From Anaerolineae bacterium (GTDB lineage: Bacteria; Chloroflexota; Anaerolineae; Aggregatilineales; Phototrophicaceae), in NCBI GenBank assembly GCA_025454525.1, contig JALOOG010000007.1, positions 1 to 64,000 on the forward strand: a stretch of 64,000 nt of DNA, written 5' to 3'. The notes under the pieces are model-generated. The model saw nothing but the letters and a program-made list of their open reading frames with translations, was not told the DNA's origin and searched no databases. The position numbers were made by a program, and so were the translations under genes. Positions 5,930 to 47,552 of the stretch are shown piece after piece (within the stretch, counting starts at the first letter, position 1; each line of letters starts with the position of its first letter).

Positions 5930-6577
5930 TTAGTGACGGGTATCACTCTCATGAGAACTGGTAGGGGGTACGGGGGGCATTCCCCCCGTGCCGGTGGTGG
6001 GCGGAGGACGGCGATAACGATCATCCGGTACAGGTAACGACCGCCGCGTGCGAAATGCGCTGAAATAGATCACCAAACCGACGATCGTCATAAACACCAC
6101 GGCCACGAATGCCCCTAACGCCGCCCAAACAATCCGTAACACCGCGTCTTCCGTGTCCACCGTTTCAGCGATCGGGGCGACGCTTCCAGTATTCAAACCC
6201 GGGATCGATTGCGCGCCAAATTCCATGACATCCGCCAATTGATCCGCGTTGACGACATCCGTCATAAAATTCGGAGTCGTGGCTACATACGCTGCGCTGA
6301 TCACTTCGATCGAATATTGGCCCGGTTGCAATCCTTCAAAACAGATCAAACCGCGATCTAAGGTGGGTGAATTATCCAATAACGCACTCGCGATCACGAT
6401 GCCGCTCACATCCAACAGATTCGCACTAATGCCGCCGCGTAAGGTGAACTCATTCACCTCACGTACACCATTGCCATTGAGATCTTCAAAGGCGCGCACG
6501 CAAAATTGGCCCGTCGCTTGCGCGAAAGTTGGGGTAAGGGCAATTAGGAAGATCAGCACCGCTAAGCATTTGTTCAT
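5930..6577 (-). CDS. Secreted SdrD/B-like domain protein with C-terminal membrane anchor
   Basis: The 215-residue protein starts with a signal peptide (MNKCLAVLIFLIALTPTFAQA). A beta-sandwich domain follows with FEDLNGNGVREVNEF, a DxNxNG calcium-binding-like loop found in SdrD/CnaB-type domains. Near residues 148-173 is a transmembrane helix, and the tail is Pro/Arg-rich (RRPPPTTGTGG). It is probably a surface protein anchored by its C-terminal helix. It lies 18 bases downstream of the LysM gene at 6596, and AAGGATG precedes the ATG. The neighbour carries the same type of domain and anchor, so the two likely work together at the cell surface. Confidence 0.75.
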   Translation of the reverse strand: MNKCLAVLIFLIALTPTFAQATGQFCVRAFEDLNGNGVREVNEFTLRGGISANLLDVSGIVIASALLDNSPTLDRGLICFEGLQPGQYSIEVISAAYVATTPNFMTDVVNADQLADVMEFGAQSIPGLNTGSVAPIAETVDTEDAVLRIVWAALGAFVAVVFMTIVGLVIYFSAFRTRRSLPVPDDRYRRPPPTTGTGGMPPVPPTSSHESDTRH

Positions 6578-6595
6578 TGTGTCATCCTTTTTGGC

Positions 6596-8254
6596 CTAAC
6601 GCCGTCTTAACAACAAGGCCGTGGTGATCCCAACTAAAATCACAAAACCCGCTAACCCAAACACGATCAGTCCGAGGTTTTGTATCAAGGGATTGGTGAT
6701 GCTTCCGGCGGGATCTTCAACGACTTGGGGGGCCTCTGCCTCATCTTCAGCAGCATCCGCAGGCGGCACAACCGCAACTGCCACGCCTTGCGCCGCCCCG
6801 AAAACGGCATTCACCGGTTTGTCGCTGACTCGGACATTTAACCGGAGTTGCGCCGCCGTTGTCAACCCATAGCCGTCCGGCGGAGTCGCGGCCGCAATGT
6901 AATCACCGGGCGCGAGTTCCTCGAAACAATGCGGTTCAGAGCTGCCGTCGGTTGGATAGGTTTCGACAGTTGCACCCTCCAAACTCAGGGCGATCGTACC
7001 ACCCGCTAACAGACCTTCCCCTTGTTCGCGGATGCGATTCTGATTGCTATCATCAAACATCAACACACAGACTCCGGTGATCGGATCAGCGCTTTGATCG
7101 CGTTGTGCGACTTCTGTCACAGGGGCCGGCGGTGCATCCGTCACCGTCGCCACAACTTGGGGAGTCGCGGTCGGTTGCGCTTGCGAAACTTCGGTAGCAG
7201 CTGCACGCGATTCCGTTGCGTTTTCCGTCGCTTCCGGCGTGGAAACCGTCGGAGAAGCGGTAGGATTATTGGTCTCATTGGTTGCGGCCGGCGCATCACC
7301 CGCTGGTGTGCGTGTGGGACTAGCGCCACTGCTTCCACCGGACGGCGCGGGCGCGATCAACAAACGTTGACCGATCTGCAAAAAGCGACCGCTGCTCAAA
7401 TTATTCAGGCGTAAAATTTCGTCATTGGTGGTGCGATAGGCCACCGCGATCGCGCTTAAGGTATCGCCCGGTTGCACCACATGCACAACCGATCCGTCAG
7501 ATTGCGGGGGTTGTGGCACGACAAACGAGGCTAAGGCCGGAGTCGGCACAACGGGGGTATTGGTTGGCGCGGCCGTGCCGGGTGTCCCCGCAGGCGCAGT
7601 CCCACCGCCTCCACCGACACTTAAGGTCGCATCATCCCAATAGATCCCGTTGGGATTTTCGGGGGCGCTTTGAGTCGCATATAAAAACAAGGTGACTTGC
7701 GTGCCGGTTGCCGTCGCATCGACCGTCGCTTGCACCCAACCGTCGTCATTCGTCACCCAACCCGACCAGATGATCCCACCAGAAAGCGGATTGGTGCCGC
7801 CTGTAGGATCAATCCCGATGCGGAATTGCCCGCCCGGGGTTTGTTGACCCGACTCGCCGCGTTCCATAAATCCGCGGGCCGTCCCACGCACATTGGCTTT
7901 ATCCGGCACAGCCACCGTTTGAAAAACCGCGGTGGTAAAGGTCGAAAAACCGCGTGCGATATGAAATGAACGCGCCCCATCAATTTTAAATAGTCCGGTG
8001 TGCGGGAATCCCGTCGGAATCCGGTTACGCCACACTTCATCCCCGGCTGTGGGCAATTGCGCCCAACCACTCCACGCGGGCGGTACGTCAAAATTAGTCC
8101 CGTCTTGCGGATCCGAAACCACCCGTTTGTAATCCCCGACCGCTTCAAAGCTTGGATCTTGTAATAGATTCCCTTGCGCGCTCACCGGAATACTTACGCT
8201 GAAGGTAAGCCCCATCAAGACGATCACGGCAATCCATAGTTTATTCATCGGCAT
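6596..8254 (-). CDS. Surface protein with jelly-roll, LysM and SdrD/B-like domains and C-terminal anchor
   Basis: I place the start at the ATG at 8254 because GGAG lies 8 bases upstream; the frame continues seven codons further. The 552-residue protein has a signal peptide, a domain beginning NLLQDPSFEAVGDY that resembles carbohydrate-binding jelly rolls, a LysM module (HVVQPGDTLSAIAVAYRT to GQRLLIAP), a Thr/Ala/Pro-rich linker, an SdrD/B-like domain with MFDDSNQNRIREQGEG, and a terminal transmembrane helix ending in RRR. LysM binds peptidoglycan or chitin-like glycans, which suggests an anchored wall or sheath protein. It forms an operon with the gene at 5930. Confidence 0.8.
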   Translation of the reverse strand: MPMNKLWIAVIVLMGLTFSVSIPVSAQGNLLQDPSFEAVGDYKRVVSDPQDGTNFDVPPAWSGWAQLPTAGDEVWRNRIPTGFPHTGLFKIDGARSFHIARGFSTFTTAVFQTVAVPDKANVRGTARGFMERGESGQQTPGGQFRIGIDPTGGTNPLSGGIIWSGWVTNDDGWVQATVDATATGTQVTLFLYATQSAPENPNGIYWDDATLSVGGGGGTAPAGTPGTAAPTNTPVVPTPALASFVVPQPPQSDGSVVHVVQPGDTLSAIAVAYRTTNDEILRLNNLSSGRFLQIGQRLLIAPAPSGGSSGASPTRTPAGDAPAATNETNNPTASPTVSTPEATENATESRAAATEVSQAQPTATPQVVATVTDAPPAPVTEVAQRDQSADPITGVCVLMFDDSNQNRIREQGEGLLAGGTIALSLEGATVETYPTDGSSEPHCFEELAPGDYIAAATPPDGYGLTTAAQLRLNVRVSDKPVNAVFGAAQGVAVAVVPPADAAEDEAEAPQVVEDPAGSITNPLIQNLGLIVFGLAGFVILVGITTALLLRRR

Positions 8255-41420: not shown

Positions 41421-42668
41421 TTAATCCCCAAATAGGGCTTCGGTTTCTACCAGATCACTGAATGTCACCACAAAGGGCGGATTCGCATTGATCGCCGCGA
41501 TCAAGTAGTTACGTCCGTTAAAGAAATTGGTGTCGGGCAACTCAAACAGCACATCTTGTGTTTCTGCAAACAACACCCGCAAGTTATACGCCCCTTCCGG
41601 CACAATAAAGCTATCGAAACCGTCGTTACCACCAAAAAACCCCGGAAATCCTAAACCATCGATCAATACAATCGCATTCTCACCCGTTTCATCGGGAGTC
41701 AATACGTCCAGATTCGTCCCCGGTAAGGCGTTAAATACATTGACTCGTACATCTCCCAAGGCTAAGGGGCTAAAATCTTCTTGCACCGTGTGTAATTGCA
41801 GGGATTCGTTGGCCGTCGTGCCAATGACAAACAATGTCGTATAACTGCGATCCGTTAACGTGATCTCAATCGGCGGGATTAACGCCTCACTTTGATCGGG
41901 AAGTGTGATCATCACCGAGATCACCCCCGTTTCAAAGCGCTGCCAAGGGGTGATTTCTGGGAAATAGATCCGCCCAAAGTGGTCATTTTCTCCGTCAATA
42001 TAAATGTCTAATGGTGAACTGCCTGATGAAAAATGCGCGACACGCAACAGCGCCCTCCCTGCAATTCCGCTTCCCACGATCACCAATTGCGCTTGATCAT
42101 CTTTTTCGACGACCCCGATCAGATAATCTTGACCCATTTGTAGCGCTAACGCCTGTGTCAGCAGGATCGCCCCCGACTCAACTGATTCGAGGGTAATCTC
42201 ACGGCTATCAGAGGCGACATCGATCGTCACAATCCCGCTTTCCCATTGAGCCGCCCGGACTTGATCATCAACGATCACATTCAGCGCTATCTCAGATGCA
42301 AGCGTATTGATTAAGGTCAAACGCGCCCCTTCAATCCCTCCCGTTGAAGCGCCGATCGGATAAATTTCACGTTCTCGTCCAATCACCAAAGTAATATAAG
42401 CGCCTTGCGTTGGAGCAAACATCGGGATTTCGACGATCACCCCGCCCTCCGCTTGTAAGTTTAATGGGGTCTCAAGGTTTACACGCACCCATTCGCTCAC
42501 CTCACCAAATGCGATCGCATCAATTAACACCCGATCTTGATGCAATGCGAAGATCGGCGAGTCCATATCAAAATGCGCCACACGCACATAGTAATCTGTC
42601 TCTGACGCTTGCCCTACCACGCTCCAACTGAACAGCGAAAGCAAGAGGCTACATAAGAACTTTCGCAT
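41421..42668 (-). CDS. Secreted DUF4397-domain protein
   Basis: The 415-residue protein has a signal peptide (MRKFLCSLLLSLFSWSVVGQA) and repeated Ig-like beta domains. YYVRVAHFDMDSP, LLRVAHFSSGSSPLDIYIDG and VRVNVFNALPGTNLDVL are the DUF4397 signature (a short strand, then RVAHxSP and a D-V/I-Y strand). The domain occurs in secreted proteins of bacteria and archaea and its role is unknown. It stands as a single gene on the minus strand. Confidence 0.82.
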   Translation of the reverse strand: MRKFLCSLLLSLFSWSVVGQASETDYYVRVAHFDMDSPIFALHQDRVLIDAIAFGEVSEWVRVNLETPLNLQAEGGVIVEIPMFAPTQGAYITLVIGREREIYPIGASTGGIEGARLTLINTLASEIALNVIVDDQVRAAQWESGIVTIDVASDSREITLESVESGAILLTQALALQMGQDYLIGVVEKDDQAQLVIVGSGIAGRALLRVAHFSSGSSPLDIYIDGENDHFGRIYFPEITPWQRFETGVISVMITLPDQSEALIPPIEITLTDRSYTTLFVIGTTANESLQLHTVQEDFSPLALGDVRVNVFNALPGTNLDVLTPDETGENAIVLIDGLGFPGFFGGNDGFDSFIVPEGAYNLRVLFAETQDVLFELPDTNFFNGRNYLIAAINANPPFVVTFSDLVETEALFGD

Positions 42669-42816: not shown

Positions 42817-43305
42817 TTATTTGTTGCCGTGCGTCCAAGTCAATTGTTCGCGCACTTGCAGATCGGTATGACGGATCTTCATCGCTAAGTCCGCGGCCAA
42901 ATTCCGCATCAAGCGATACCCTAATTGTGAATAAGTGTCACATAACAACATCAGCTTATCACGCGGGATCACGATCAAGCGCGTGTCTTGTTGAGAGCAA
43001 CGCGCCCCCGCTGACCGCACCCCTTGATCCACTAAAGACACCTCACCGAATGATTGCCCACGCCGTAAAGTGGCGATCGTGTGTGCGCCCGCGCCGATGT
43101 CTTTTCCTACCAATGACGGATCGACCTGAATTTCGACCTCACCATTTGCGATCACATACAATTCATCCCCCGGCGTATTTTCTTCAAAGATGATGTCGCC
43201 CGCTTGATAATGCCGTTCGGAACAAATTGATGCGATCAATTCGAGTTGCGTGTTGGTTAACTCATCAAAGATGTCTGCTTGCTTCAAGACATTCACGACA
43301 GACAT
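42817..43305 (-). CDS. Stand-alone cyclic-nucleotide-binding protein
   Basis: The 162-residue protein is one cNMP-binding beta-roll (about 10-125) plus C-terminal helices, without a DNA-binding or catalytic domain. The phosphate-binding cassette reads GQSFGEVSLVDQGVRSAGARC, with Gly87-Glu88 and Arg97 in the positions that hold cyclic phosphate and ribose in CRP/PKA-type domains, so ligand binding is likely. It may be a receptor subunit for cAMP made by the cyclase at 25389 or by others. Its own promoter candidate lies at 43344-43373 on the minus strand. Confidence 0.85.
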   Translation of the reverse strand: MSVVNVLKQADIFDELTNTQLELIASICSERHYQAGDIIFEENTPGDELYVIANGEVEIQVDPSLVGKDIGAGAHTIATLRRGQSFGEVSLVDQGVRSAGARCSQQDTRLIVIPRDKLMLLCDTYSQLGYRLMRNLAADLAMKIRHTDLQVREQLTWTHGNK

Positions 43306-43668: not shown

Positions 43669-44889
43669 ATGTCAGATCAAGAATTACATCCGCAACCCCT
43701 CCCCTACCGTGTGTGGGGTGCGGAATTTATTGACGCTGAATCGCAAAAACAAATGGATAACGCGATGCGCTTACCGGTGACGGTGGCAGGTGCATTGATG
43801 CCAGATGCTCATGTCGGTTACGGACTACCGATCGGCGGTGTATTGGCTACCGAGAACGCGGTGATCCCGTATGCTGTGGGTGTGGATATTGCGTGTCGGA
43901 TGCGCCTTTCGATCTATGAAATCTCACCGCATGTCCTCGGCCAACAAACCGGAAAATTTAAAAACGCGCTCACTGAAGGGACTCGCTTCGGCGCGGGCCA
44001 AAAATACACAGGCAAAGATCAAGCCGAACATGAAGTCTTAGACGATCCACTATGGGAGACCACCCCGTTTTTAAAAAACCTGTTAAACACCGCTTACGGG
44101 CAACTTGGCACCAGTGGATCGGGGAATCATTTTGTCAATTGGGGCGCGATTCACTTTGAACAGGACGCACCAGACCTAGACCTCAAAGCGGGGGAATATC
44201 TCGCATTGCTCTCACACAGCGGCTCACGCGGAGTCGGGTATCAGATCGCAGATCGTTATTCCAAGTTGGCGATGAATTATCACCCCAACCTCGATAAATC
44301 CGCCCGTCATCTCTCATGGTTGCCGTTAGACTGGGATTTAGGGCGCGAATATTGGTTGAGCATGGAGTTGGCCGGCCGGTTTGCATCGGCGAATCATGAG
44401 ATTATTCATCAGCGCGTTTCCAAAGCCGCCGGACTCAAACCGATCGCAGTGGTCGAAAATCATCACAATTTCGCGTGGAAAGAGACGTTTATCGATGAAA
44501 ATGGTCAGGCCCATGATGTGATTGTGCATCGTAAAGGTGCGACTCCGGCGGGCGCGGGGGTGTTAGGGGTGATTCCGGGTTCAATGGCCGATCCCGGTTA
44601 TCTGGTGCGAGGAAAAGGCCTGAACAGCGCGCTTAATTCTGCATCTCATGGCGCGGGCCGTCAATATAGCCGCCGCAAAGCGATCGAAAACATCACCAAA
44701 ACGGAGCGGGATCGCTATCTCAAAGAACGTGGCGTTACCTTGATCGGCGCGGGTATGGATGAGTCGCCACAAGCATATAAAAACATCGATCAAGTGATCA
44801 ACGCGCAACTGGATTTAGTCGAACTTGTCGCTAAATTCACCCCGCGGATCGTGATCATGGACGGCAGCGGTAGCAAAAGTGAAGACTGA
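43669..44889 (+). CDS. RtcB-family RNA ligase-like protein
   Basis: The 406-residue protein is RtcB-like. PDAHVGYGLPIGGV (45-58), GVDIACRM (Asp73, Cys76), GSGNHF (151-156), LSHSGSRG (His183), ENHHNFAW and SASHGAGRQYSR (His327, which accepts GMP) are conserved. RtcB joins 2',3'-cyclic-phosphate and 5'-OH RNA ends with GTP and manganese. Here DIGCG of the canonical enzyme reads DIACR, and the chain ends in VIMDGSGSKSED rather than the usual terminal Lys-Gly, so it belongs to a divergent subfamily whose activity needs testing. Its last 11 bases overlap the next gene. Confidence 0.85.
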   Translation: MSDQELHPQPLPYRVWGAEFIDAESQKQMDNAMRLPVTVAGALMPDAHVGYGLPIGGVLATENAVIPYAVGVDIACRMRLSIYEISPHVLGQQTGKFKNALTEGTRFGAGQKYTGKDQAEHEVLDDPLWETTPFLKNLLNTAYGQLGTSGSGNHFVNWGAIHFEQDAPDLDLKAGEYLALLSHSGSRGVGYQIADRYSKLAMNYHPNLDKSARHLSWLPLDWDLGREYWLSMELAGRFASANHEIIHQRVSKAAGLKPIAVVENHHNFAWKETFIDENGQAHDVIVHRKGATPAGAGVLGVIPGSMADPGYLVRGKGLNSALNSASHGAGRQYSRRKAIENITKTERDRYLKERGVTLIGAGMDESPQAYKNIDQVINAQLDLVELVAKFTPRIVIMDGSGSKSED

Positions 44890-45703
44890 TTTTGACATCA
44901 CGCTTGATGAATGGATCTGTGTTTGTATCTCCCGACAAGTGATTGACGGTGAGGTGTTAGCGCAAGGGATCAATACCCCGTTGGTCATGGCGGGGTTTAT
45001 CCTCGCTAAACTCACCCATGCGCCGCGCATTCGTTTTGCTTCGGCCATTGGTCAATCGGTGTGCGATGATTGGGGGCCGTTGGGAGTCGGTCGGATCGAA
45101 GAGGTGTGGTTAAGCAAAGGGTTATTTCATGCCGGATTCGCCACAGCCACCGCGGAGTTACTGCCCAAGTACAACCCGAAAGAGTTTTTTCGCCCCGCGC
45201 AAATTGACGCGGCCGGCAATACCAATAACATCGCTTTCGGGCGCGATTATCAGCGACCACGAATGCGACTCCCCGGCACAGGGGGAATCCCGGATGTAAC
45301 GCCCTATTCGGATCACATTTATCTGTATGTGCCACGCCATTCGCCGGTGACGTTTGTCGAACGGGTGGATTTTATCAGCGGTCTAGGCCATCGTGCCGAT
45401 CGTCAACGGGGATCCGGGCCGCGTTATCTGGTGAGCGATCTCGGTCAATTTGACTGGGATCAAGGGCAAATGCGTTTGATCAGCTATCATCCTCACACCA
45501 CAATAGAACAGATCCAACGCAAGACCGGATTTCCCTTGTTAATCGCATCGGATATTCATGCCACCCCCGCGCCGACTCCGGATGAGATCCGCTTGTTACG
45601 AGAGGTGATCGATCCGCTTGACGTGCGAAAGCTAGAGACGCTTAGCGGATCGGCCCGTAAGGATTTATTGCGTAGCATCTTAGAGCGCGAACACGCGCTT
45701 TAA
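44879..45703 (+). CDS. CoA-transferase family I beta-type subunit, catalytic Glu replaced
   Basis: The 274-residue protein matches by eye the beta subunit of glutaconate CoA-transferase-type enzymes (GctB): EWICVCISRQVIDGEVLAQG at the start, AQIDAAGNTNNIAFGRDY, RLPGTGGIPDVTPYSDH, then YLVSDLGQF and SYHPHTTIEQI. In GctB the active-site Glu54 lies in IVESG; here the segment reads RFASAIG, so Ala54 occupies the position, as in IpdB-like relatives that are not classical transferases. No alpha subunit is adjacent. The start is GTG, within the RtcB-like gene; no in-frame ATG is available before the conserved part. Confidence 0.78.
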   Translation: MKTDFDITLDEWICVCISRQVIDGEVLAQGINTPLVMAGFILAKLTHAPRIRFASAIGQSVCDDWGPLGVGRIEEVWLSKGLFHAGFATATAELLPKYNPKEFFRPAQIDAAGNTNNIAFGRDYQRPRMRLPGTGGIPDVTPYSDHIYLYVPRHSPVTFVERVDFISGLGHRADRQRGSGPRYLVSDLGQFDWDQGQMRLISYHPHTTIEQIQRKTGFPLLIASDIHATPAPTPDEIRLLREVIDPLDVRKLETLSGSARKDLLRSILEREHAL

Positions 45704-45749: not shown

Positions 45750-47552
45750 TTATTCGGAGAGTGTCCAAGCCGGAATCGTCAAGAAACGATCACGGGGCGC
45801 ACCGATAAAACCTAGCTGGACATTTTGCACCCGTCCATTCACAGCATAGGTATACAACGGATAATACAGCGGCATCGCTAAGGCCCTTTGGGCAAATTGC
45901 CGTTGAAACAGATGATAATTTTGGGTGCGATTTAGGCTATTGGGATCACGACGGGCGCGCTCTAAGATCTCGCTGATTTCGCGGTCATCCGCTCCGCCGT
46001 AATTTTTACCATCTGGAAACTGGCCTTGATGCCAAAATTCATAGACATCCGGATCGGCGCTGCCCCCCTTGCTCAATTCGACGATCGCCGCTTGAAAATC
46101 ATGCGTGGTTAACCGTGCTAAATAGGTTTCGGCGTTCACAGCATCCACCGTCACCCCGATATTGAGTTGCGCCCATTGTGCGGCCATCTCTTGCGCGATC
46201 GCGATCAAGGCGGGATCATCTGGGGTGAGGATGCTAAAGCTAAACAACCCGGTGTTCGCGCCTGTCGGTGTCACTTCAGGGGTAACGTCCTCACTATCAA
46301 CTTGGGTGGTGATGTTGATCCGCGCATTTTCCAACAGATTTCGGGCTTGTGCGAGGTCATAAGGCAACCACGGCAAATTTTCGGCATAAGCCCATGAATT
46401 GAGTAACATCGGGCTATCAGCACGGATCGCAAGGTTGGGTAAATTGCGTTCGATCAACGTTTCGCGGTTCAAGCCTGCTTGTAAGGCCAACCGGACGCGC
46501 GGCTCACGAAACACCCGAAAATTTTCATCCCCCCAATTGTAGATCAACATGCCTACGGCCGGTTCAATCCCATTGCGGATCGTGATCGATCGATTTTGCG
46601 TGGAGAGCGTCAACAAAGCGCGGCGTTCATCGAAATTGCGTGCGGCCAACCCGTCGATCGTCTGTTGATTCAGCGCTTCTAAGGCCTGATCAAATTGATC
46701 AAACAGAGAAAATTGGACACGCAAGATCGCTAAGCGATTTTGTGCATCGGGACGTTGACGATACACTGGGGAGGCTTGAAGATCCACGCGGATCACACGG
46801 CCATTCGGATCGACTCGGAGCGCCTCTAGTTGATATGGCCCAGTCCCGATCGGCGCAAGGTTAAACGGATGTGTCGCTAAGTGTAAGGCGGAGGTGCCGT
46901 CTAAGACATGCACAGGCAAGATCCCAATCCGTAATGCCTCTGGAAAACTACCGAGGGGTTGTGTCAAGCGGAATCGCACGGTGTAATCATCGATCGCTTC
47001 GGCCTCTACGGTGCGCCAAAATGCCCCTAAGGCCTCCTCACCAGTGAACTCCGGTGAGCGTAATAAGGCCATCGTGAACACCACATCGGCCGCGGTGAAC
47101 GGGAGTCCGTCTTGCCATAACACATCCCGCCGCAAATTGACCACATATTCAAGCGCATCTTGCGAGACAATCCACCGCTCCGCTAGATTCGGGATCGCCT
47201 CGCCATATTCGTTAATCTCCGTCAATCCCTCAAAGATCAAGGCGGTGATGTCACTATCGACCGGATTTAATGAGGCATACAACGGGTTTAGACGTTGCAT
47301 CGATCCGATCAACCCTTCCCGATAGATCGTCGGATCAAGGGGGCTGGTGATCGGCGTGGTTAGCGGTTGCACAATGGCGGGTTGCGATTCATCGGTCGGG
47401 ATCGGATCGGTACTTGGGGCGGTGATCATCTGGCCCGGTTGGGGGACATACACGACTTCTTCAACAGGACTCGGACGAGTCAACCAGACTCCGCCCAAAA
47501 GGACAAGGGCGGCTAAAAAAGCGAATAACTGCCAACGGAATCCGCGTAACAT
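45750..47552 (-). CDS. ABC-type peptide/nickel binding protein (family 5)
   Basis: The 600-residue protein has an N-terminal membrane or signal helix (LFAFLAALVLLGGVWL), a Thr/Pro-rich linker and the family-5 solute-binding fold. REGLIGSMQRLNPLYASLNPVD, ERWIVSQDALEYVVNLRRDVLWQDGLPFTAADVVFT and VRLALQAGLNRETLIER are typical of DppA/OppA-like proteins. A hydrophobic helix with no lipobox Cys suggests a membrane-tethered form. No permease or ATPase genes are next to it, so it is an orphan. It lies 92 bases downstream of secG on the same strand. Confidence 0.88.
   Translation of the reverse strand: MLRGFRWQLFAFLAALVLLGGVWLTRPSPVEEVVYVPQPGQMITAPSTDPIPTDESQPAIVQPLTTPITSPLDPTIYREGLIGSMQRLNPLYASLNPVDSDITALIFEGLTEINEYGEAIPNLAERWIVSQDALEYVVNLRRDVLWQDGLPFTAADVVFTMALLRSPEFTGEEALGAFWRTVEAEAIDDYTVRFRLTQPLGSFPEALRIGILPVHVLDGTSALHLATHPFNLAPIGTGPYQLEALRVDPNGRVIRVDLQASPVYRQRPDAQNRLAILRVQFSLFDQFDQALEALNQQTIDGLAARNFDERRALLTLSTQNRSITIRNGIEPAVGMLIYNWGDENFRVFREPRVRLALQAGLNRETLIERNLPNLAIRADSPMLLNSWAYAENLPWLPYDLAQARNLLENARINITTQVDSEDVTPEVTPTGANTGLFSFSILTPDDPALIAIAQEMAAQWAQLNIGVTVDAVNAETYLARLTTHDFQAAIVELSKGGSADPDVYEFWHQGQFPDGKNYGGADDREISEILERARRDPNSLNRTQNYHLFQRQFAQRALAMPLYYPLYTYAVNGRVQNVQLGFIGAPRDRFLTIPAWTLSE

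Follow-up and report, generated by a model that had tools for sequence, protein, structure and literature searches.

Does an RNA ligase gene that overlaps the gene of a CoA-transferase-like subunit form a functional module with it, and if not, what does the second protein do? The question is raised by two genes on the forward strand of the window, which is the whole stretch of 64,000 nucleotides that was analysed. The first, rtcB (43669..44889; ORF, Pfam, PDB alignments and motif positions), encodes an RtcB-like RNA ligase of 406 aa. The second, here called beta (44879..45703; ORF, Pfam, PDB and predicted fold), starts with GTG at 44879 and encodes a GctB/AibB/IpdB-type acyl-CoA enzyme subunit of 274 aa. 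The rtcB stop and the beta start lie within a shared segment of 11 bases (44879..44889, forward strand), and the overlap and the GTG start described in an earlier, sequence-only reading of this DNA were both reproduced. The neighbours on the other strand were named by eye as a hypothetical secreted protein (41421-42668), a CRP-like protein (42817-43305) and a substrate-binding-protein-like product (45750-47552), and for these three genes the comparison with relatives covered block order only.

Beta passes the Pfam CoA_trans profile narrowly (E 4e-5; 23.6 bits against a cut-off of 23), and the NCBIfam profiles gave it no name. Its sequence matches in the PDB include AibB (E 1e-20), GctB (4e-20) and IpdB (3e-17), and the GctB-like segments AQID, GTGG and SDLGQF, which had been picked out by eye, are present. 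It had also been proposed that Ala54 of beta stands where GctB has its catalytic Glu54; an alanine is indeed found in that column, but it is Ala56 (codon 45044..45046, forward strand), residue 54 being alanine as well. GctB has Glu54 in this column, and paralogues of the transferase type from sister genomes likewise have Glu; AibB has Cys56 and IpdB has Gly57 (alignment; PMC5380842, PMC7756340). The catalytic beta Glu that forms the anhydride in class I CoA transferases is thus replaced in this protein, and alanine was found in 36 of 36 orthologues. The pair to which beta belongs (see below) could in principle be a true CoA transferase that uses another residue, as the overall fold and the conserved glycine-rich segments would allow; the invariant alanine, the retention of Glu in the transferase-type paralogues and the alignment, in which no Glu adjoins the catalytic column, make this very unlikely. 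Since beta has the GctB fold without the transferase Glu, it is probably not a CoA transferase, as the sequence-only reading had suspected.

A second acidic residue of beta, Glu74 (codon 45098..45100, forward strand), is Glu in 36 of 36 orthologues and aligns with Glu72 of AibB (alignment; PMC7756340), in a region where the alignment runs near gaps. The IpdB encoded in a steroid-type gene cluster likewise has a Glu at this position of the alignment, and GctB has no counterpart.

The remark that no alpha subunit lies beside beta holds for the window contig, but the genome does contain one. In this 97%-complete assembly of an Anaerolineae-related bacterium, exactly two CoA_trans genes were found, namely the window beta and one alpha, which is intact, encodes 267 aa and is located on another contig (C202:59604-60404). 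The NCBIfam profiles gave only weak transferase matches to alpha. Relatives of the same family mostly carry alpha and beta within a single block, separated by about 3-11 kb; in class-level relatives the two genes abut or overlap. The window carries one side of this block, in which RtcB and beta are accompanied by the CRP-like gene, a gene resembling that of tyrosyl-tRNA synthetase and one for an ABC-type binding protein (identities assigned by eye, except for RtcB and the CoA-related genes), and contig C202 carries the other side, with alpha and the three genes that come after alpha elsewhere; the block thus appears to be split in this genome. Two other arrangements were observed. One locus (L076, G165:C791) holds two adjacent beta copies, at 6185-7102 and 7099-7917, beside one alpha, which is a tandem beta duplication, and in another (L080, G033:C16) a single frame at 4357-6093 matches both alpha and beta and probably encodes an alpha-beta fusion belonging to the wider family. 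Two loci (L117 and L122) come from records named Pleurocapsa minor and Bacteroidetes bacterium; their beta sequences group among Anaerolineae, and the assemblies are probably misassigned or contaminated.

The occurrence of the two subunits is strongly associated. Among 97 genomes of the family, 81 carry both, 11 neither, five beta only and none alpha only (P = 4e-11, uncorrected for shared ancestry); four of the five beta-only genomes have a recorded completeness of 75-85% and the fifth of 96%. The earlier suggestion that beta, with no alpha beside it, might bind CoA or a nucleotide is therefore not supported, as a matching alpha exists and tracks beta almost perfectly. The same data bear on the reading, prompted by the separation of alpha and beta in this genome, that beta has no enzymatic role and is an orphan or a subunit in decay. 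This is highly improbable, given that alpha is intact, that the two subunits co-occur nearly perfectly, and that beta keeps 64-75% identity and many invariant positions across 29 further genomes.

Structure prediction extended these similarities to the fold. The beta model (pLDDT 76, pTM 0.81) has low confidence in its central part, at residues 109-142 and 165-173, and the model of an orthologous alpha is better defined (pLDDT 90, pTM 0.88). Against AibAB, IpdAB and Gct, the beta model gave Z scores of 20-21 (rmsd 2.9-3.2, 229-236 residues aligned) and the orthologous alpha model 28-30.5 (rmsd 2.0-2.5, 251-259 aligned), and other CoA transferases reached at most 13.6 and 22.7, respectively. 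Both models have the two-subunit alpha/beta CoA-transferase fold, and the alpha gene is present in the genome. By sequence and fold the pair is equally close to AibAB and IpdAB, the fold scores differing by about 1 Z or less.

Three characterised enzymes with this fold serve as points of comparison. GctAB is the glutaconate CoA-transferase of Acidaminococcus fermentans (PDB 1poi), AibAB is the 3-methylglutaconyl-CoA decarboxylase of Myxococcus xanthus (PDB 5mzw), and IpdAB is the steroid ring-C hydrolase of Rhodococcus jostii and mycobacteria (PDB 6co6, 6con, 6coj). Hydrolysis of COCHEA-CoA is the mark of the IpdAB-type C-C hydrolase. The present pair shares with GctAB the fold and the glycine-rich segments, and differs from it by the missing beta Glu54 and by a glutamate in alpha, Glu103, that GctAB lacks. 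As judged from its residues, it therefore appears to belong to that branch of the glutaconate CoA-transferase fold whose members are not transferases. A missing beta Glu has precedents in IpdAB and AibAB, both of which use other chemistry on acyl-CoA (PMC5380842, PMC7756340). In RHA1, IpdAB has beta Gly57 in place of the transferase Glu, and no CoA transfer was detected between the short acyl substrates tested (PMC5380842). It was also reported that the AibB Cys56Ala variant is active and that AibB Glu72 is the proposed proton source (PMC7756340).

The alpha residue Glu103 was compared across these enzymes. It is Glu in 31 of 31 orthologues, and its counterpart in the alignment is IpdA Glu105, which was mutated to Ala in the substrate complex 6coj. 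In the same column, Glu is found in two IpdA sequences and in a Simplicispira plasmid pair. AibA has Gly there and GctA has Gln, and three paralogues of the transferase type from sister genomes carry Asn or His. The reference IpdA and IpdB were taken from a Sphingobium plasmid cluster that also carries hsaC, enoyl-CoA hydratase and acyl-CoA dehydrogenase genes, and from these neighbours we infer that the plasmid pair is IpdAB; the IpdB residue comparison used this steroid-type cluster rather than the IpdB chains in the PDB. The resemblance to IpdAB thus comprises the alpha/beta fold, a beta without the transferase Glu and the shared alpha Glu; unlike in IpdAB, the beta column holds Ala rather than Gly, the alpha and beta genes are unlinked in this genome, and the identity is about 22-28%.

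The main rival is that the pair decarboxylates a (3-methyl)glutaconyl-CoA-type substrate in the manner of AibAB, with beta Glu74 as the proton source; sequence alone does not separate such a decarboxylase from a hydrolase. AibA and AibB are the top or tied PDB matches in sequence and fold, AibB too lacks the Glu, Glu74 matches AibB Glu72, and although the Cys56 of AibB is replaced by Ala56 here, the activity of the Cys56Ala variant is compatible with decarboxylase chemistry. However, AibA has Gly at the position of the invariant alpha Glu103, the difference in fold scores is slight, and Glu74 also matches the IpdB Glu of the steroid-type cluster, so this residue is not discriminating. Decarboxylation is hence regarded as a possible though rather unlikely function. 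With moderate confidence, we favour instead that the alpha/beta pair is an IpdAB-like hydrolytic enzyme that cleaves a C-C bond of a CoA-thioester, and that RtcB is only its neighbour.

Here we infer the assembly of alpha with beta as well as the chemistry and the substrate, and the IpdAB-like reaction can be outlined as follows. Beta would be one subunit of a two-subunit enzyme, with the alpha on contig C202 as its partner. The pair lacks the glutamate on which CoA transferases build their acyl-enzyme anhydride, and alpha Glu103 stands at the position of IpdA Glu105. The CoA-thioester substrate would be held between alpha and beta. As in IpdAB, Glu103 would activate the substrate or a water molecule so that the C-C bond is cleaved, with beta Glu74 as a possible proton donor. 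The cleavage would be hydrolytic, of the retro-aldol/retro-Claisen type.

The pair probably acts on a different substrate from IpdAB, since a search of this genome (230 contigs) with IpdC and HsaC of Sphingobium TomTYG65, run without a positive control, yielded no homologue. Four weak crotonase matches were obtained when the context of steroid CD-ring degradation was sought. In a relative from the class (L054, G170:C10), alpha and beta lie in a run with an acyl-CoA dehydrogenase, two ETF genes, a thiolase, a 4HBT thioesterase, an aminotransferase and HGD-D, which points to acyl-CoA catabolism by an uncharacterised pathway. The acyl-CoA pathway served by the pair is probably non-steroid.

It remains to place RtcB. 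The product of 43669-44889 is identified as RtcB by Pfam (E 9e-81) and is the sole RtcB found in a whole-genome search. The catalytic-type residues D73, C76, N153, H154, H183, H266 and H327 are present, and with the conserved metal ligands and the guanylylated His positions located by alignment and motif, ligase activity is predicted. Like the RtcB RNA ligases (PDB 4dwr, 1uc2, 7lfq; NCBIfam PRK09588), it keeps the metal- and nucleotide-binding residues in the alignments; unlike them, it has 406 aa rather than about 480 and scores under the NCBIfam cut-offs. Archease and PrfH were considered as partners of RtcB and rejected, because archease is absent from the genome and no PrfH match exceeded its cut-off; the two weaker PrfH matches are probably ordinary release factors.

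The sequence-only reading had regarded the linked RNA ligase and CoA-fold genes as a possible new module. As far as the arrangement is concerned, this was borne out beyond the present genome: of 80 loci in the genome collection, 27 have an RtcB that ends no more than 400 bp upstream of beta, three have it further upstream and 45 yielded none, the upstream flank being cut too short to tell in the other five. The gap ranges from -47 to +299 nt across 18 scored loci including the window and is mostly within 11 nt, and many of the family's branches in the beta tree show the adjacency. Frequent overlap or close spacing in many genomes of one family is what a functional module, for example RNA repair tied to CoA or nucleotide sensing, would lead one to expect. 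Yet the two genes occur independently: of the 97 family genomes, 35 carry both, 51 beta only, four RtcB only and seven neither (P = 1, uncorrected for shared ancestry). Moreover, beta is retained without a flanking RtcB by 27 of the 28 members of a well-supported clade. It follows that RtcB is a neighbour and not a partner, and the module was rejected on the occurrence statistics and this clade; we consider it extremely improbable. Conservation extends to other genes of the block around RtcB and beta, which makes the adjacency one element of general synteny. It is a real and partly conserved arrangement within part of one family, with no evidence of a functional link. RtcB would have become the upstream neighbour of beta and stayed so in part of the family, and it appears to be an ordinary RNA ligase gene. 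A limited literature search found no paper that links RtcB with CoA transferases.

The kind of enzyme described here is already known, and the alpha/beta pair represents an uncharacterised subgroup of it; in the same limited search, no paper on this clade was found. Its combination of beta Ala56, beta Glu74 and alpha Glu103 has, as far as the compared residues indicate, an exact match in neither IpdAB nor AibAB. With a slightly better than even chance, the pair adds to the Glu-less branch a third enzyme, as yet uncharacterised, that cleaves a CoA-linked intermediate in an undescribed catabolic pathway of Anaerolineae and related Chloroflexota. A misleading CoA-transferase annotation is thereby turned into a testable prediction, with the alpha-Glu/beta-Ala signature as a testable refinement. 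The example of RtcB also illustrates that a conserved, even overlapping, adjacency need not be a functional module, the link here being explained as neighbourhood. Within one fold, the loss of the beta Glu and the gain of the alpha Glu would track the shift from CoA transfer to C-C cleavage, and the second, Glu-less kind would be the one carried by a large group of environmental Anaerolineae.
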